A stretch of DNA of 32,870 nt, taken from Bacilli bacterium (GTDB lineage: Bacteria; Bacillota_I; Bacilli_A; RF39; UBA660). The translations under genes were made by a program, and so were the position numbers. The stretch lies in assembly GCA_028703035.1 (NCBI GenBank), contig JAQVNR010000004.1, positions 1 to 32,870 of the forward strand. The letters run 5' to 3'. Below are positions 12-19,289 of the stretch, piece by piece. Position 1 is the stretch's first letter, and every line of letters begins with the position of its first letter. The notes under the pieces were generated by a model. The model saw nothing but the letters and a program-made list of their open reading frames with translations. It had not been told where the DNA came from and searched no databases.

Positions 12-272
12 TTATTTTGATTCAACTATTAATTTAATAGCGGTTTTTTCAACCCCATCGATTGTAATATCACTAAATGCTGGTATTACAACTAGATTTT
101 TCCCACTTGGAGCTACAAATCCACGTGCTATAGCAATTGCTTTAATTGCTTGGTTAAGTGATCCCGCTCCAATAGTTTGTAGTTCAACAGTACCATCTTG
201 TCTAAACACATTAGCAATAGCTCCTGCTACTTTACTTGGATTACTCTTGCTTGAAACTTTTAATATTTCCAT
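12..272 (-). CDS. spoVS: Stage V sporulation protein S (SpoVS)
   Basis: The 86-residue product matches the SpoVS family over its full length, including the segments IGAGSLNQAIKAIAIARGF, VAPSGKNL and the ending TAIKLIVESK. SpoVS is a small Alba-like fold protein that in Bacillus affects septation and spore coat and cortex completion. I place the start at the ATG at 272, because a GGAGG ribosome-binding site lies at 279-283 and this gives the usual family length. A GTG at 284 in the same frame would add four residues but would contain the binding site. The neighbours on the left are outside the window. Family identity is very secure; its exact role in this organism is inferred from the family. 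Confidence 0.95.
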   Translation of the reverse strand: MEILKVSSKSNPSKVAGAIANVFRQDGTVELQTIGAGSLNQAIKAIAIARGFVAPSGKNLVVIPAFSDITIDGVEKTAIKLIVESK

Positions 273-455
273 TCCTACCTCCACTAAAATATATGAAAGT
301 AAGATGGATTTAGAATAAAATATAATTTTAATCCTTTATTCTTGAATTGATAATCAAATTTTGTTCAGCTAATATTGTTTTTTAACCCCTTCCTTTATGA
401 CAAAGTTATGACCAAAAAAATATATGATAATAGTATATCTTACATTACTATGAAT

Positions 456-1272: not shown

Positions 1273-2526
1273 TTACTTTTTTAACAAAGTATTGTTAAGT
1301 ATTACATCATTTGGCTCTATATAATACATATCTATTTTGTTTAGAGTTCTTTCATTAGTTGTAAATAACATCGACTTGAAAGGACATTGATTGTTTAATG
1401 ATTCTCGACATAAGCTATTTATATGATTGGCAATTAAGTTACAATCTTCTTGTGTAAGATCATTAAATGAAGATCCCTTTGGTAATATATATCTAATAAA
1501 CTCATGGTTCTTTTCCAATGCTCCTTTTTGATCACTCCTGTATGGATCACAATAAAACAGTTTAACAACTTTTTCTCCTGTTTTATGATAGAATTCAATA
1601 GATTCAGTATCTAAAAATTCACTACCATTATCAGTTAGTATTATTTCAAATAATTGTTTAAATTCCTCTTCAGATAGTATGTCTTGTAAATCTTTAAATA
1701 CTTTTTTAACACACTCTTGTGTTAAAGAATCAATTAAAAAAATCAACATGAAATTATGCTTTCGCCAAAGTAATGTTAGAAAAGCTTTACCGCCTTTGTT
1801 ACCTTCAACAGTATCCATTTCAACTATATTACAGTTAGGATTTTCTAAGGTATAATCAAGGAAGTCTTGATATGTTCTGTTTATTCTAACTATTCTTTCT
1901 GTTTTTGTTCTTCTTTTTTTAGAGTTTTTTCTTGTTTTATATCTAACTTTACGATTTAAATCAATATTTCTAAATTTGAATAATCCAGCATCTATATAAG
2001 AGTAGAATGTAGTCTTAGAGAAATCTAGTATATCAGGGTAATTAATTAATACATGATTAATAGGTTGGTTTTGATCTGTTATCAAAGGTCCAATAACTTT
2101 ATCAATAATATGTATTTCTTCCTCTGTAATATCAAAACCACTTCTAGAATCAATTAATCTATTTCTATATGTTTTATTAGCTTCTTTAGCATAATAAACA
2201 TACCTTTCTTTTCTGCATCCGTTTCTTGATTTACATCCATTACAAACATAAGGACTTGATTGTAATTTTAAACATTGATCTTTTTCATAACAATCTAATT
2301 TGTAATCACAATATTTTTTATGGCAAGTGTGTCTGTTTTTACAAACTGTATCACCACCGTATGATAAAGTATGAATGTGAGTTTTATTTTTAGCAACTTC
2401 TCTTAAAATAGTAGAATGAGATTTATTTAATTTCTTTGCAATTTTATAAATAGAATCTCGATTGTTCAAATCAGCTTCTATACAACATCTATCTTCATAA
2501 GTTAAATGTTTTGAATTTGTAGTCAT
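1273..2526 (-). CDS. IS30-family transposase
   Basis: The 417-residue protein begins MTTNSKHLTYEDRCCIEADL, an N-terminal helix-turn-helix typical of IS30 (KIAKKLNKSHSTILREV, about residues 28-44). A cysteine-rich segment of eight Cys (about residues 62-104) follows and looks zinc-binding. The RNase H-fold catalytic domain has all three acidic residues: D238 (EMDTV), D299 (LTDNGSEF) and E338 (GALEKNHEF). I chose the ATG at 2526 because AAGAAGG lies a few bases upstream; an in-frame TTG at 2553 lies within the terminal repeat. The gene has no frameshift, so the element may still be active. It fills the insertion sequence and is unrelated in function to its neighbours. Confidence 0.93.
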   Translation of the reverse strand: MTTNSKHLTYEDRCCIEADLNNRDSIYKIAKKLNKSHSTILREVAKNKTHIHTLSYGGDTVCKNRHTCHKKYCDYKLDCYEKDQCLKLQSSPYVCNGCKSRNGCRKERYVYYAKEANKTYRNRLIDSRSGFDITEEEIHIIDKVIGPLITDQNQPINHVLINYPDILDFSKTTFYSYIDAGLFKFRNIDLNRKVRYKTRKNSKKRRTKTERIVRINRTYQDFLDYTLENPNCNIVEMDTVEGNKGGKAFLTLLWRKHNFMLIFLIDSLTQECVKKVFKDLQDILSEEEFKQLFEIILTDNGSEFLDTESIEFYHKTGEKVVKLFYCDPYRSDQKGALEKNHEFIRYILPKGSSFNDLTQEDCNLIANHINSLCRESLNNQCPFKSMLFTTNERTLNKIDMYYIEPNDVILNNTLLKK

Positions 2527-2578
2527 AATAACCTTCTTTCTAGAGACATACAAATTGCAAAAGTTATAATATCATAGT

Positions 2579-2710: not shown

Positions 2711-4075
2711 ATGATAAATATATTAATTATTATAAATAAACTAATAACATTACTATGTAAAATATTTAGTAAATTGTTTAATAAAAATGGAACTGTTCTT
2801 CCAGGTAGTATAGTTTTAAAATTAAATCCTGATATTTTAACAAAAATAAAATATCCTAAATATGTAATTGGCATAACCGGCTCTAGCGGAAAAGGCTCTA
2901 CTACTAACTATGTAGCGCATATTCTAAAAAGTGCTGGTTTAAAAGTTGTTTGGAACAACTCTGGATCTAATGTTTTAAATGGTGCGACAACCTTAATTTT
3001 AAACAATACCAACTTTTTGACAAGAAGATTAAAAGCTGATGCCCTTCTTTTAGAACTAGATGAATCATATATTAGACATATCTTTAAAAGTAATAATTTA
3101 ACTCATCTAGTTGTTACAAATATAACTAGAGATCAACCATCTAGAAATGGAAATCCAGACATTATTTTAAATAAAATTAAATATTCAATTGACTATAATA
3201 CTCATTTAATTATTAATGCTGATGATTCTACTGTTAATAAACTTAGTTTAAATCATCAAGGAAAACTCACCTCATTTGGAATAGCTAAAAATAAATATAG
3301 TTTGAATAAGCCAATTAGTAATAATATAGACTCTGCCTACTGTCCAATATGCTCAGCTAAATTAATATATGGTTATTATCATTATGGACATTTAGGTGGC
3401 TATAAATGCAAGTCTTGTGACTATAAAAGAAATATTGATTATGAAGCTTCTAAAATAGACTTAGATAAAAAAACGATGATTATTAATAAAAATAAAATAT
3501 CTTTAAACAAAAATATTTTCTTTGATGCTTATAATATCCTAGCAGCTTATACTTTATGTAAAGAAATTGGCATTAAAGATGAAGATTTACTTAAAGCTTT
3601 AAATATTAATAAAATAATATCTAAACGAATGAAAAGTTTGAAATTAGGTGACCGAGATGTTATCATGATTGAAAGCAAAAATGAAAACAACTTAAGTTAT
3701 AACCAAAGTTTAACTTATATTAATCAAACAAAAGAAACTAAAACAATTATTCTTGGATTTGATAATGTCTCAAGAAGATATAAGCATAATGATTTGTCTT
3801 GGTTGTATGACATTGACTTTAATATTCTCGATACTGAAAATATCGATCGGATATTTTGTATCGGAAGATTTAGATTTGATGTAGCAGCTAGATTAATAAA
3901 CTCGGGAATTAATCCTGAACTTTTAATTCTTGTTGAGGATATTAATAATATTATCACTCTTTTAAAAGAAAATAGTACTGGTACTATATTTACTATGGTT
4001 TGTTTTGATATGACAGATATTTTAACCAAATTATTTATCAAAGAAGAAGAAGAAGGTGATAATGATGAAAATTAA
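2711..4075 (+). CDS. murT: Lipid II isoglutaminyl synthase, MurT subunit
   Basis: This 454-residue protein has the Mur ligase central domain followed by the MurT-specific C-terminal domain (DUF1727). Visible motifs are a nucleotide-binding loop GITGSSGKGSTT (about 54-65), LELDES (114-119), TNITRDQPSRNG (136-147, usually RDQ-x-DRFGE) and a Cys4 zinc ribbon (C211, C214, C233, C236) typical of MurT. The C-terminal SWLYDIDF matches the MurT segment that completes the GatD active site. With GatD, MurT amidates the alpha-carboxylate of D-Glu in lipid II at the cytoplasmic membrane face. The P-loop and the RDQ segment are somewhat divergent. It is followed directly by, and overlaps, gatD. The partner lacks its glutaminase residues, so the usual reaction is doubtful here. 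Confidence 0.9.
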   Translation: MINILIIINKLITLLCKIFSKLFNKNGTVLPGSIVLKLNPDILTKIKYPKYVIGITGSSGKGSTTNYVAHILKSAGLKVVWNNSGSNVLNGATTLILNNTNFLTRRLKADALLLELDESYIRHIFKSNNLTHLVVTNITRDQPSRNGNPDIILNKIKYSIDYNTHLIINADDSTVNKLSLNHQGKLTSFGIAKNKYSLNKPISNNIDSAYCPICSAKLIYGYYHYGHLGGYKCKSCDYKRNIDYEASKIDLDKKTMIINKNKISLNKNIFFDAYNILAAYTLCKEIGIKDEDLLKALNINKIISKRMKSLKLGDRDVIMIESKNENNLSYNQSLTYINQTKETKTIILGFDNVSRRYKHNDLSWLYDIDFNILDTENIDRIFCIGRFRFDVAARLINSGINPELLILVEDINNIITLLKENSTGTIFTMVCFDMTDILTKLFIKEEEEGDNDEN

Positions 4076-4772
4076 AATAGCTCATTTATATTATGATTTA
4101 CTTAATCTATATGGAGAACAAGGAAATGTTCTAGCCCTTCAAGATGCCTTTAAAAAGCAAGGAGTAGATATAGCAGTTGATTTATTAACTGTTGGTGATA
4201 AAATGGATTTTGATAAATATGATTTATTATACATGGGAAGTGGCACTAAAAACAACTTGCTAATTGCTTTAGAAGATTTTAAAAAACATACAGTAACATT
4301 TAAAAAAGCAATTAAAAATAATAAATATTTTATATCTACAGGTAATTCTCATGAAATATTTGGCAAGTTTATTGAAGTAGATAATGAGAAATATAAAGCT
4401 TTAGGAATATTTAATTATTATACAAAACAAAATCAAATAAGAATTGTTGGAGACTCGATTATGGAATTTAAAGACTTAGAACCAATAATAGGTTTTCAAA
4501 ATCGTTCTTCTGTTATGCAAAATAATAAAAATCATTTATTTAATGTAATAAATGGATATGCTGATAATTACAAATCTTCATATGAAGGATACCTTGAAAA
4601 TAATTTTATTGGAACATATTTAATTGGTCCACTACTTATTAGAAATCCCCATTTAACTGATTATATCGTAAAAGATATTTTAGAAAATAAAAACATAACT
4701 TATAAACTAATTGATAACACTTTTGAATATAAAGCTTATGATGAATACTTTAAAAATTTTTATAATCAATAA
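4065..4772 (+). CDS. gatD: GatD-like glutamine amidotransferase subunit, catalytic residues lost
   Basis: The 235-residue protein aligns along its length with GatD of the class I (CobB/CobQ-type) amidotransferases: LLNLYGEQGNVLAL near the N-terminus, ALGIFNYYT, IIGFQNRSS and GTYLIGPLLIRNPHLTDY near the C-terminus. The family nucleophile lies in a segment like TICGGYQFLGK. Here that is STGNSHEIFGK, with Gly93 at the Cys position. The catalytic His in GTYLHGP is Ile187 here. Both key residues are therefore missing, and glutaminase activity is not expected. I chose the ATG at 4065, which follows GAAGAAGG and overlaps the murT stop by 11 bp; ATG 4062 is possible. It could use ammonia from another source, act as a structural partner of MurT, or do something else. 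Confidence 0.85.
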   Translation: MKIKIAHLYYDLLNLYGEQGNVLALQDAFKKQGVDIAVDLLTVGDKMDFDKYDLLYMGSGTKNNLLIALEDFKKHTVTFKKAIKNNKYFISTGNSHEIFGKFIEVDNEKYKALGIFNYYTKQNQIRIVGDSIMEFKDLEPIIGFQNRSSVMQNNKNHLFNVINGYADNYKSSYEGYLENNFIGTYLIGPLLIRNPHLTDYIVKDILENKNITYKLIDNTFEYKAYDEYFKNFYNQ

Positions 4773-4797
4773 AAAAATGAGTTTGAACTCATTTTTT
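4771..4797. terminator. Bidirectional terminator between gatD and the coat gene
   Basis: ATGAGTT (4777-4783) pairs with AACTCAT (4786-4792), flanked by A-runs on the left and T-runs on the right, so it can stop transcription from both converging genes. Confidence 0.8.
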
Positions 4798-5251
4798 AAA
4801 CACAATCGACGAAAGTGTCGCTTAAGCATCGAACTGCACAGACGCAATTTAAATCCATTGTAAAGAAGCTGTTTGATGCTACCCAAGGAATATTGCATGT
4901 ACTTTTTTCAGGATTAGGAACTAATACTCTAAAAGTAGCACAATTGCCTTCTAATTTTTCAACTCTGAATACTGATGAACAATCATCTGATGTATCTAAA
5001 CCTGTTATAGTTGAGCACACTTCAACATTATCCTTGCATACTGGCATGCTAAACGGAATACCATTACCACAACAAGTAAATAATTGAATTGGTCTAGTAT
5101 TGAATACTATACAATTAGTACCCCCTCCTAATATCGGTCTATCACATGAATCAGTACAATTGTTTGGACAAGCATTTTCTTGAAGTACATTTATAACTTT
5201 TAATATTTCCGTAATACAATTCCCTTTTCCAGAGCATTCATTATTACACAT
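4796..5251 (-). CDS. cotZ: CotY/CotZ-family spore coat protein
   Basis: This 151-residue cysteine-rich protein matches the CotY/CotZ/ExsY family, which forms crosslinked outer-coat or exosporium crust layers. Visible marks are the N-terminal MCNNECSGKGNC, the pattern ILKVINVLQENACPNNC, the central FRVEKLEGNCATFRVL and the C-terminal LNCVCAVRCLSDTFVDC. Many Cys suggest disulfide networks. The start has AAAGGGTG a few bases upstream. A SigK-type promoter (AC, 16 bp, CATAAAATA) lies just before it, consistent with mother-cell expression late in sporulation. It stands alone and converges on gatD through a shared terminator. Whether it corresponds to CotY or CotZ cannot be decided from sequence alone. 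Confidence 0.88.
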   Translation of the reverse strand: MCNNECSGKGNCITEILKVINVLQENACPNNCTDSCDRPILGGGTNCIVFNTRPIQLFTCCGNGIPFSMPVCKDNVEVCSTITGLDTSDDCSSVFRVEKLEGNCATFRVLVPNPEKSTCNIPWVASNSFFTMDLNCVCAVRCLSDTFVDCV

Positions 5252-5308: not shown

Positions 5309-5355
5309 GATATTATTTTTCTTAAATATAGTGTATACTTATAGTGGTGATAAAA

Positions 5356-5667
5356 ATGTGGTGGCAATATTTAATTATATTTTTTGTCTTAGCTATTATA
5401 TCTTTAGTTATAGTAAAACTAAATAAGAAGAATTTTACTTTTGAAATTAATAAACTAGTTCAGTTTCTTGGAGGTAAAGATAATATTCTCGATACTGAAG
5501 TAAACTTGTCAAGATTTAAAGTAACACTCAAAGACGTAACAATCGTTGATAAAGATGCAATTCAAAAGTTAGGCGCTAAAGGAATAGTAGAAATAGACAA
5601 TCAATTAAAAATTATATTCGGACCAAATGCTAGAGCATTAAAAAAATACATTAGTGAAATGAAATAA
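5356..5667 (+). CDS. Membrane-anchored PTS EIIB-like protein without the phosphorylated Cys
   Basis: The 103-residue protein has one N-terminal membrane segment (about residues 3-22, WQYLIIFFVLAIISLVIV) followed by a glucose-type EIIB fold: FLGGKDNI, RFKVTLKDVTIVDKDAIQKL, GAKGIVEIDNQLKIIFGP. In EIIB the segment is NLDAC-[IT]-TRLRV; here it is DTEVNLSRFKV, so Asn50 replaces the phospho-accepting Cys. It therefore should not transfer phosphate in a sugar PTS. No EIIC gene is nearby. The start at ATG 5356 follows GGTGAT; upstream GTG codons are alternatives. A terminator overlaps the stop. It may sense or bind a partner at the membrane; this is only inference. Confidence 0.75.
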   Translation: MWWQYLIIFFVLAIISLVIVKLNKKNFTFEINKLVQFLGGKDNILDTEVNLSRFKVTLKDVTIVDKDAIQKLGAKGIVEIDNQLKIIFGPNARALKKYISEMK

Positions 5668-16447: not shown

Positions 16448-16472
16448 AAAGATTGAATTCAATTCAATCTTT
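16448..16472 (-). terminator. Hairpin at the end of leuS
   Basis: AAAGATTGAATT (16448-16459) pairs with AATTCAATCTTT (16461-16472). The leuS TGA stop is inside the stem. Only a weak T-tract follows on the minus strand, so termination may be partial. Confidence 0.45.
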
Positions 16473-19289
16473 AATAACGATATTAACAATTTTTTTAGGG
16501 ATTATAATAACTTTTATTATTTCGTTATTTTCTAGATGTCTTTTAACATTTTTTTCGGTTGTTGCTAGAGCTTTTATTTCTTCTTCGCTCATATCTTCGG
16601 TAACAGAAATAGTACCTCTTAATTTACCATTTACTTGAACACCGATTGAAACAGATTTACTTATTAGTTTAGCTTCATCATATTTAGGATATTTCTGATT
16701 ATGAATACTAAATTCATTGTTTAGAGTTTCACACCATAGCTCTTCAGTTATATGAGGTGCAAAGGGGGCTAAAATTAAAAGTAATTGTTCTAAATAGTAT
16801 CTAGGTATCCCCTCTTTTTCATGCCTTACAAGCATATTAGTATATTCCATTATTCTAGCAAGTGCTGTATTAAATTGAAAATTAGATGTATCTAATTTAA
16901 CATTTTTAATTGTATAATGGAGACTTTTTTCAAGTTCGGGTATTTCTTTTATTTCGTCTTTATAACTTTTAACAAGTCTTTCAATTTTATTATAAAACTT
17001 ATTTATAGCAATTATTCCATCATCAGTCCAAGGACCACCATCGATATAGTTAAAACCAAACATTAAATAATTTCTTAAAATATCTGAGCCATATGCATCT
17101 ACAATTGGATCCGGTGCAACTGTATTGTCTTTACTTTTACTCATTTTCTCACCATCAGCACCTAATATAATACCTTGATGAACTAAAGATTCAAAAGGCT
17201 CATCAAAATTTAAATAGCCCATATCTCTTAAAGCTTTTGTAAAAAATCTCGCATAAAGAAGGTGCATAACCGCATGTTCAATTCCGCCAACATATTTATC
17301 TACTGGTAATATTTTATTTATAATATCTTTGTTAAATGCTTCTTTATCATTATTTGCATCAGGAAATCTTAAAAAGTACCATGATGAGCAGACGAATGTA
17401 TCAAGAGTATCACATTCTCTTTTAGCAACAGAACCACATACTGGGCATTTAACATTTATAAATTCTTTTGATTTTTTTAGAGGACTTTCACCATCAGGAG
17501 TAAACTCTGCTTCTCTTGGCAGAAGTACTGGAAGATCAGCATCAGGTACTGGAACCATCCCACATTTATCACAATAAATAATTGGAATTGGTGCTCCCCA
17601 GTATCTTTGTCTAGATACTAACCAGTCTCTTAGTTTATAATTAATTGCTCTTTCCCCAGTTTTGTTTTTTTCTAAATATTTAGTTATTTTCTCTATTGCC
17701 TCTTCTTCATTAAGCCCATTGATAATATCTGAATTAATATGTTTACCATCACCTATATAGGCTTTTTCTTCTTTAAATTCGAAAGCTGTTTGATGTAGTT
17801 CATCTTTTATTTCATTTAAAATTTTTGACTCACTTACCCACTGTACTTTAAATTTGTTTTCTTCTTCGATATCTAAATCTTGATCTATTTTTGCCTCATC
17901 TATAAGTTCAAAATAAACTAAATCACATTCTATATTATAAGCTTTTTCTTTATTATAAGCATAATAATGGTGATTAATAGGAAAAGCTTGATGTAAAAAT
18001 TTTAAATTAGTATAGCCTGTTTCTTCTATTACTTCTCTAAGAGCACATTCTAAAGCTGTTTCATTTTCTTTAATTGTTCCCCCAATAAATAATCTGCCAC
18101 CTAAATTGCCCCAATTAATTGTTAAGTATTTATTGGTTTTAGGATTATAAACAACTGCTACAATACTTTTTTTAGTTGTCTCATTTTCTCTTGCATCACC
18201 AGTTACCTTTTGAACAACAGGAATAATTTCTAAATTAAATTTTTTAGCTAATTCAAAATCTCGCATGTCATGAGCTGGAACGGCCATAATTGCTCCAGTT
18301 CCATATGTTGCTAGAACGTAATCTGCTATCCAGATTGGAATTTTTTTATTATTGATTGGGTTTATAGCATAACTTCCAGTAAAAACTCCAGTTTTTTCAC
18401 GTGCGGTACTTGTTCGATCTATTTCGCTTTGAGTTGCAGCAATTTTTTGATAATTTAGGACTTCTTTTCTTTGTTCTTTAGTTGTAATTAAGTCAACTAA
18501 ATCATGTTCTGGTGCAAGCACGCAGTAGGTAGCCCCATAAAGTGTATCTGGTCTTGTAGTAAAGACTTTAAATAATTTATCAGTACCATCAATCTTAAAA
18601 GTAATATAAGCACCCTTACTTTTACCAATCCAGTTTCTTTGCAAAGTTTTAGTTCGCTCTGGCCAGTCTAATTTATCTAAATCTGCAAGTAGTTCTTCAG
18701 CATAGTCAGTAATTTTAAAGAACCACTGACTCATTTTTTTTCTAACTACAACTGATGAGCATCTTTCACACTCGCCACTTACAACTTGCTCATTAGCTAG
18801 AACTGTATTACAAGATGGACACCAGTTAACTGGCGCTAATTTTTTATAAGCTAGACCTTTTTTATAAAATTCTAAAAATAACCACTGTGTCCATTTATAA
18901 TAATTAGGATTAGATGTATCTATTTCAAAATCCCAGTCATAAGTCGCGCCAATATTTTTAAGCTGGTGCTTCATCACTCTAATATTTTGCTGAGTTGACT
19001 TTTCTGGATGAATACCAGTTGTAATTGCATAATTTTCAGCCGGAAGTCCAAAAGCATCAAATCCCATTGGATGAAACACATTATATCCTTCCATCCTCTT
19101 TAATCTTGCCCAAGTATCAGCAACACCATAATTCCACCAATGTCCCATATGTAGTTTAGCACCTGATGGATAAGAAAACATTTCTAAACAGTAAAGCTTT
19201 TTTCCTTCTGCTTCTCTATCAAACTTATATATTTTTTCTTTTTCCCATTTATCTCGCCATTTTTTTTCAATTTTATTTATATTTTCCAT
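16464..19289 (-). CDS. leuS: Leucyl-tRNA synthetase with a Nudix domain inserted in the editing domain
   Basis: At 941 residues it is about 115-135 longer than usual LeuRS. Standard parts are HMGH (47-50), a zinc motif (CPSC at 157-160 and CERC at 174-177), the editing-domain TTRPDTLYG (244-252) and GTGAIMAVPAHD (330-341), AYIGDGKHINS (510-520), WCETL and KMSKS, and a C-terminal tRNA-binding domain. Between residues about 363 and 508, where LeuRS normally has a short linker, lies a Nudix fold. Its box is complete: GTIKENETALECALREVIEE plus TGY (404-426), including both Glu of the EE pair. Leucine charging in the cytoplasm is secure; the Nudix activity is inferred. The start lies 3 bp after the small membrane protein gene, in a leucine T-box operon. 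Confidence 0.95.
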   Translation of the reverse strand: MENINKIEKKWRDKWEKEKIYKFDREAEGKKLYCLEMFSYPSGAKLHMGHWWNYGVADTWARLKRMEGYNVFHPMGFDAFGLPAENYAITTGIHPEKSTQQNIRVMKHQLKNIGATYDWDFEIDTSNPNYYKWTQWLFLEFYKKGLAYKKLAPVNWCPSCNTVLANEQVVSGECERCSSVVVRKKMSQWFFKITDYAEELLADLDKLDWPERTKTLQRNWIGKSKGAYITFKIDGTDKLFKVFTTRPDTLYGATYCVLAPEHDLVDLITTKEQRKEVLNYQKIAATQSEIDRTSTAREKTGVFTGSYAINPINNKKIPIWIADYVLATYGTGAIMAVPAHDMRDFELAKKFNLEIIPVVQKVTGDARENETTKKSIVAVVYNPKTNKYLTINWGNLGGRLFIGGTIKENETALECALREVIEETGYTNLKFLHQAFPINHHYYAYNKEKAYNIECDLVYFELIDEAKIDQDLDIEEENKFKVQWVSESKILNEIKDELHQTAFEFKEEKAYIGDGKHINSDIINGLNEEEAIEKITKYLEKNKTGERAINYKLRDWLVSRQRYWGAPIPIIYCDKCGMVPVPDADLPVLLPREAEFTPDGESPLKKSKEFINVKCPVCGSVAKRECDTLDTFVCSSWYFLRFPDANNDKEAFNKDIINKILPVDKYVGGIEHAVMHLLYARFFTKALRDMGYLNFDEPFESLVHQGIILGADGEKMSKSKDNTVAPDPIVDAYGSDILRNYLMFGFNYIDGGPWTDDGIIAINKFYNKIERLVKSYKDEIKEIPELEKSLHYTIKNVKLDTSNFQFNTALARIMEYTNMLVRHEKEGIPRYYLEQLLLILAPFAPHITEELWCETLNNEFSIHNQKYPKYDEAKLISKSVSIGVQVNGKLRGTISVTEDMSEEEIKALATTEKNVKRHLENNEIIKVIIIPKKIVNIVIKD

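Follow-up and report, generated by a model that had tools for sequence, protein, structure and literature searches.

A GatD-like subunit without catalytic cysteine and histidine, encoded beside a variant MurT in Bacilli and Clostridia

The window, meaning the whole stretch of 32,870 nucleotides that was analysed, forms contig 52 in the draft genome (1.29 Mb, about 91% complete) of a Bacilli bacterium. Judged by the named genomes that match its MurT best, this lineage stands near uncultured 'Tenericutes'/Bacilli bins and probably belongs to the order RF39. Near one end it carries murT and gatD, the two genes of a MurT/GatD-type complex, on the same strand and with an overlap of 11 nucleotides. 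The reading frame of gatD possibly starts at the ATG at 4065. The features of the two genes, placed by alignment unless stated otherwise, are as follows.

2711-4075, forward strand: murT, a Mur-ligase-like subunit of variant type, 454 residues (Pfam, PDB and fold)
2879-2902, forward strand: the P-loop GSSGKGST of MurT (canonical GTNGKTTT)
3059-3064, forward strand: Asp117-Glu118 of MurT, the kept pair for Mg2+ and the acceptor carboxylate (function according to PMC6085368)
3128-3154, forward strand: RDQPSRNGN, the ammonia-channel loop of MurT (channel role according to PMC6085368)
3677-3688, forward strand: an internal segment of murT
3770-3781, forward strand: SRRY in place of the canonical DNAADG, the segment of MurT facing the GatD active site (location according to PMC6113224)
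4065-4772, forward strand: gatD, 235 residues, a subunit like the class I glutaminases but lacking the catalytic Cys and His
4341-4343, forward strand: Gly93, where S. aureus GatD has its nucleophile Cys94
4440-4442, forward strand: Arg126, the kept equivalent of the glutamine-capturing Arg128 of S. aureus
4623-4625, forward strand: Ile187, at the site of the catalytic His189

The overall identity of the second gene is clear. Its product matches PF07685 with 41 bits (Pfam cut-off 27) and S. aureus GatD among PDB sequences with an E-value of 1.5e-31. An AlphaFold model with a pLDDT of 93 was compared with known structures, and the top PDB matches were all GatD: those of S. aureus, S. pyogenes and S. 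pneumoniae came first, with TM-scores of 0.84-0.91 (0.90 to S. aureus GatD, 6h5e/6gs2). The protein scores 106 and 125 bits against NCBIfam NF045636 and NF052463, below the equivalog cut-offs of 400 and 450, which are a weak test, as a canonical, Cys-bearing GatD from Clostridia also falls below them (244 and 208 bits).

The active site is a different matter. An ungapped alignment with S. aureus GatD places the elbow STGNSHEIFGK opposite TICGGYQFLGK and GTYLIGP opposite GTYLHGP, which confirms the two replacements named in the original prediction, Gly93 for the nucleophilic Cys and Ile187 for the His. In addition, Gly60 of the oxyanion hole is replaced by Ser. The residue equivalent to Arg128, which captures glutamine in S. 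aureus GatD (PMC5871853), is retained. The window protein therefore combines the fold, the sequence and the Arg128 equivalent of a GatD with the absence of Cys94, His189, Gly60 and the [GT]xCxG elbow. The prediction named a Cys/His pair elsewhere in the active site as a refutation; the protein contains no Cys at all, so none is able to stand in, and a hidden cysteine nucleophile is ruled out. A second, canonical gatD was sought in the organism's own draft genome and was not found; MurT_C and full-length GATase_3 each match once in that genome, both times at the window locus. Judged by its residues, the window GatD is almost certainly not a glutaminase.

MurT can be recognized just as readily. 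Its sequence matches PF08353 (61.5 bits) and PF08245, Mur_ligase_M (35.4 bits), both above cut-off, its best PDB sequence match is S. aureus MurT (E-value 1.8e-48), and its modelled fold matches MurT structures first. All four zinc-ribbon cysteines (Cys211, Cys214, Cys233 and Cys236) are kept, and so are Asn87, Glu115, Asp117-Glu118, Lys323 and Ser363-Trp364. Both domains, the Walker lysine, the acceptor Asn, the EIDE motif and RDQ are present, as is the adjacent gatD on the same strand. The suggestion that MurT is also divergent at its nucleotide loop and RDQ motif does not hold. The P-loop GSSGKGST resembles that of FolC, and its sequence reads as a Walker A loop of the working type, not as a loss. 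RDQ is intact (TNITRDQPSR) and is invariant in canonical and variant MurTs alike; the changes lie downstream, where MDRFGE has become PSRNGN. Within this channel loop the second Arg is retained, while the Asp, Tyr/Phe and Glu that follow are replaced. Two further segments do depart from the canonical pattern, with NVSRRY at the DNAAD segment and KNEN at the KNP loop. By its retained residues, MurT is very probably still a ligase of peptidoglycan precursors.

The changes can be followed in a residue comparison, in S. aureus numbering, of 60 canonical pairs with 139 pairs of the same type as the window, here called group I and recognized by the MurT motif S[RGY][KR]Y; a few genomes may stand twice in these sets. 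In GatD of group I, Cys94 is replaced by Gly in every pair save one with Ser, His189 by Ile, Thr or Leu, and CGGYQ by TGN[SA]xE. Positions 93, 94, 95, 98 and 189 are wholly changed between the two sets and positions 60, 96 and 149 strongly so, with Ser, Ala or Met for Gly60 and TGN[SA] at the elbow. All of these sites belong to the active site. Tyr17, Asn22, Gly59, Gly61, Arg128 and Asn148 are kept, and Arg128 is more than 95% conserved in both sets. A fully conserved Ser, Thr or Cys that could serve as a substitute nucleophile was sought in the group I alignment, and none was found. A nucleophile shifted to Thr93 or Ser96 is likewise ruled out, since neither is strictly conserved: Thr93 is sometimes Ala, Cys or Leu, and Ser96 is often Ala.

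In MurT of group I, the retained residues are Gly55, Gly58, Lys59, Asn85, Glu108, Asp110, Glu111, Arg133-Asp134-Gln135, Arg138, Lys315, Ser351 and Trp352. The changed segments are 112-113, 132-141, 313-319 and 340-348. The 132-141 loop is thought to line the ammonia channel (PMC6085368), and the DNAADG segment adjoins Asp349, which completes the glutaminase triad (PMC6113224). Two arginines are new and nearly fixed, at position 112 in 114 of the 139 pairs (Ser in the window) and at position 345 in 127 of them. On this alignment, MurT has changed in concert at its GatD-facing and channel segments, with the catalytic residues of a Mur ligase left in place.

GatD is under purifying selection and is not decaying. 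Within the genus, dN/dS is 0.07-0.22 for GatD and 0.10-0.33 for MurT, rough values because for many pairs dS approaches or exceeds 1. Together with the fold match to S. aureus GatD and the preserved murT-gatD operon, these low ratios argue against decay. In all 139 pairs of group I, gatD is the gene that directly follows murT, with both on one strand, and the same holds for 68 of 68 canonical pairs.

The loss of the GatD Cys is clade-wide and extends beyond the window's family. A protein search matched 53 of 147 relatives, and when 395 genomes from the class were searched for MurT_C, 53 matches were again obtained. The pair is carried by about 48 genomes of the family, and an alignment of the kind suggested in the original prediction finds GatD to be Cys-less in all but two of them (G030 and G050, which are canonical). 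The family's common replacements are TGN[SA]xE for CGGYQ and Leu, Ile or Thr for His189. A sequencing error or chance is ruled out, as the change is common to all seven retrieved congeners, the family, and other genera and orders.

Outside the family a Cys-less GatD is found in cultured bacteria as well. Named genomes were scanned once with the MurT alignment, and GatD was Cys-less at all of the best 80 loci, which comprise Bacilli metagenome bins and many Clostridia. Cultured carriers include Ruminococcus bromii (L171), Oscillibacter valericigenes (L152), Flavonifractor sp. An82 (L174) and Massiliimalia massiliensis (L148). The Cys-less pair is the sole MurT in 12 of 13 such genomes tested, these four among them. 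In a Clostridia sample, the class of R. bromii, MurT is present in 212 of 391 genomes. The 30 best-scoring loci (L200-L229) are all canonical, and 47 low-scoring loci read singly gave 43 Cys-less GatDs, two canonical ones and two loci where a search for GatD found none. Once G459 and G465 are counted in, about 21% of the Clostridia carriers (45/212) have a Cys-less GatD, an estimate for which the remaining high scorers were assumed to be canonical. No earlier report of a Cys-less GatD was found in the limited library of literature searched.

The variant is not a single type. In a tree of 87 MurT sequences, which contains no GatD column and is unrooted and without an outgroup, all Cys-bearing pairs group together with good support (SH-aLRT 97). 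Those without the Cys form group I (41 rows, SH-aLRT 98), which takes in the window and Oscillospirales, group II (16 rows, 99) and group III (7 rows, 100), with a further group of two rows from one family (f17). On this unrooted tree three changes suffice, one deep split and two later losses (L230 and L238) within the canonical group. Several types can occur in one genome: groups I and II in G034, G069 and G462, groups II and III in G748 and G836, and a canonical with a Cys-less pair in G800 (L320 and L311). Since the types coexist in single genomes, it can be argued that they are not redundant and that not all of them can perform the same amidation of D-Glu.

Some of these types have further peculiarities. 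Another Cys-less GatD, with AIEQGY and TQLRGP, is found at L298 and at the two f17 loci (L057 and L058). The sole f17 genome in which MurE was read (G114) has DDPY for DNPR, which may point to peptidoglycan of an unusual type. The group III loci L261-L267, L269-L272, L275, L277, L287 and L289 have KDQVQRNGD and IKQENP in MurT. The GatD of group III has VTGTS and TNTLGP and has lost Arg128 as well, and its MurE has DNPA for DNPR in two of three read. One genome (G484) has, beside an intact canonical copy (L310), a second GatD (L316) that is otherwise canonical and keeps the His, and in which only the Cys has become Gly (CIGGGYQ), a possible intermediate.

Several known systems can be compared with the variant. 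The MurT/GatD complexes of S. aureus, S. pneumoniae and S. pyogenes share its operon order, both folds and the zinc ribbon. These lipid II isoglutaminyl synthases also share the catalytic residues of the Mur ligase and GatD Tyr17, Asn22, Arg128 and Asn148. ATP-dependent acyl-phosphate chemistry and the fold are common to MurT, to MurE, MurC and MurF and to the pseudomurein ligase pMurC. Unlike the isoglutaminyl synthases, the variant has no nucleophilic Cys or catalytic His and an altered Gly60 in the oxyanion hole, and unlike canonical MurT it has other conserved motifs in place of the channel loop, the KNP loop and the DNAADG segment. Fold, sequence and operon are thus those of GatD and MurT, and the defining catalytic residues place this GatD outside the glutaminases. 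The fitting description should be a MurT/pseudo-GatD variant rather than a glutamine-hydrolysing isoglutaminyl synthase.

The closest precedent is a laboratory mutant of S. aureus GatD in which the same Cys was replaced by Gly. The C94G protein loses glutamine-dependent amidation, and its NH3-dependent amidation of lipid II is unchanged at pH 8.5 (PMC3266927). MurT alone is inactive with any donor, and the ammonia-dependent amidation of the C94G complex still requires GatD (PMC3266927). The mutant differs from the variant in that its His189 and its MurT are unchanged and in that ammonia is used only at pH 8.5. A natural precedent is vertebrate CPS I, which has kept a class I GATase domain from which the Cys is absent and uses free ammonia (PMC7657897); it is an unrelated synthase with a fused domain and a small-molecule product.

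From these precedents the activity, acceptor and nucleophile of the variant complex may be inferred. GatD would be a conserved, non-catalytic subunit, a pseudo-glutaminase, of a MurT/GatD-type complex, and MurT an ATP-dependent ligase acting on a membrane-bound peptidoglycan precursor. MurT would activate a carboxylate as an acyl phosphate and couple it to free ammonia, with glutamine not used; the likeliest carboxylate is the alpha-carboxyl of D-Glu in lipid I or II. The part left to GatD would be an essential one, giving the MurT site its shape or controlling access to it. Because S. aureus C94G keeps its NH3-dependent amidation and needs GatD, and because CPS I does without the Cys, the favoured reading is a MurT that works on free ammonia and cannot do without GatD as its structural partner, a tentative reading with something short of an even chance; ammonia as the nucleophile has the same near-even standing. 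Several observations count against it. The S. aureus complex does not use ammonia at pH 7.5 (PMC3266927). Group I retains Arg128, a surprise if the glutamine pocket has been given up. The gain of Arg112 and Arg345 and the loss of DNAADG in MurT exceed the needs of a simple loss of glutaminase, and Cys-less types occur side by side, or with a canonical pair, in the genomes listed above.

Some of these observations feed the main rival, in which the variant MurT couples an amino acid (for instance Gly) or a polyamine to the alpha-carboxyl of D-Glu or to another carboxyl of the precursor, and the pseudo-GatD acts as a subunit for docking, as a lid, or as the holder of a ligand in the old glutamine pocket. 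The replacement of DNAADG by [VI]SR[KR]Y, with Arg345 in most pairs, falls in a region that has been compared with the amino-acid-binding motif of MurE (PMC6113224), and in most of group I Ala112 beside the Mg2+ pair has become Arg. The third residue of the stem does not explain the DNAADG change, as canonical Clostridia and most of group I both have a DAP-type MurE; for the same reason (DNPR in MurE) the motif was rejected as a mark of DAP versus Lys stems. The kept Arg128 would also suit a bound ligand, and several types per genome imply several products. Against this, the window itself has Ser at 112, and no conserved third gene is there to supply a substrate. The changed segments are also in contact with the active site of GatD and with the ammonia channel, and could simply follow the loss of glutaminase. 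The rival is rather unlikely. An equally doubtful extension of it would see in gut Clostridia and Bacilli a branch of the Mur ligases that is widespread but has gone unrecognised, adding an amino acid or amine to the alpha-carboxyl of D-Glu in lipid-linked precursors with an inactive GatD-fold partner, and with types, some of them coexisting, that make different products.

It is improbable that the complex uses ammonia to amidate another carboxyl, such as that of meso-DAP. The carriers tested mostly have a DAP-type MurE, and if there were two sites to amidate, this would agree with the genomes that hold two Cys-less types, but the acceptor-side residues Asn85, Asp110 and Glu111 of MurT are unchanged and, according to PMC8554201, DAP is amidated elsewhere by AsnB-type enzymes. 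Even less probable is continued dependence on glutamine, through Cys-independent hydrolysis by GatD or ammonia from another docked glutaminase. Tyr17, Asp/Glu19, Arg128 and Asn148 are kept, in favour of this; yet the Cys and the oxyanion Gly60 are gone, no fully conserved Ser, Thr or Cys lies at or beside the elbow, and C94G, C94A, C94S and H189A each abolish the glutamine activity of the S. aureus enzyme (PMC3266927, PMC5871853, PMC6113224). A relict operon, decaying and functionless after the loss of D-Glu amidation, would account for the many family genomes without a detectable copy. This reading is largely refuted and extremely unlikely, given the purifying selection, replacement motifs conserved across distant orders, frames intact in nearly all copies and unbroken pairing. 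Among the three outcomes offered in the original prediction, namely free ammonia, a changed substrate or a new ligase-like complex, free ammonia is thus the best supported, by C94G (PMC3266927), while the two new arginines of MurT and the coexisting types leave some room for a changed nucleophile.

The choice matters because amidation of D-Glu governs cross-linking, charge and the reading of peptidoglycan by the NOD sensors of the host. Annotation would make these genes glutamine-dependent lipid II amidases, and in many common bacteria of the gut, some of which are in culture, the sequence contradicts it. The cell-wall chemistry of the carriers probably runs on free ammonia or another amine. 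With a natural equivalent of C94G and a co-changed MurT, it can be tested directly whether the gut, rich in ammonia, lets amidation of peptidoglycan run on the free form, or whether a different ligase has arisen from MurT. Muropeptide data for a carrier were sought in the same limited library and none were found.

The genomic context links the pair to the cell wall. Its neighbours in related loci are murB, murG and ftsQ in some cases, ftsA and ftsZ or mreB in others, which ties it to cell-wall synthesis. Clustering of the neighbours of related loci, a procedure cluttered by antisense frames of high GC content, gave no conserved third gene in the operon. The window's own genome encodes MurC, MurD, MurE, MurF and Ddl, and its MurE has the DAP-type motif DNPR. 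This argues against a link in the window to type B peptidoglycan, in which the cross-link runs through the alpha-carboxyl of D-Glu; for family f17, with its DDPY, such a link is possible. Besides an ordinary MurF (L102), another MurF-like ligase, whose N-terminal region is hydrophobic, is encoded directly upstream of Ddl on contig 14 (L101:955-2526, genome G000).

In the window, murT is preceded by a transposase-like gene and gatD is followed by a convergent CotZ-like gene, so the immediate context is uninformative. The transposase-like frame (1273-2553, reverse strand) has its 5' end about 157 bp upstream of murT; Pfam finds HTH_38 only, and it appears IS30-like by eye. The CotZ-like spore coat protein (4796-5251, reverse strand; PF10612, 56.1 bits) and a SpoVS (12-284, reverse strand; PF04232, 122.8 bits) may be remnants of sporulation, or signs of a capacity for it, in this reduced genome of 1.29 Mb. 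An orphan domain resembling PTS EIIB (5344-5667, forward strand) has an N-terminal hydrophobic stretch and scores 26.5 bits against a Pfam cut-off of 27. Finally, the leucyl-tRNA synthetase of 941 residues (16464-19289, reverse strand) has a NUDIX domain (PF00293, 40.3 bits, residues 375-492) inserted beside its editing domain.
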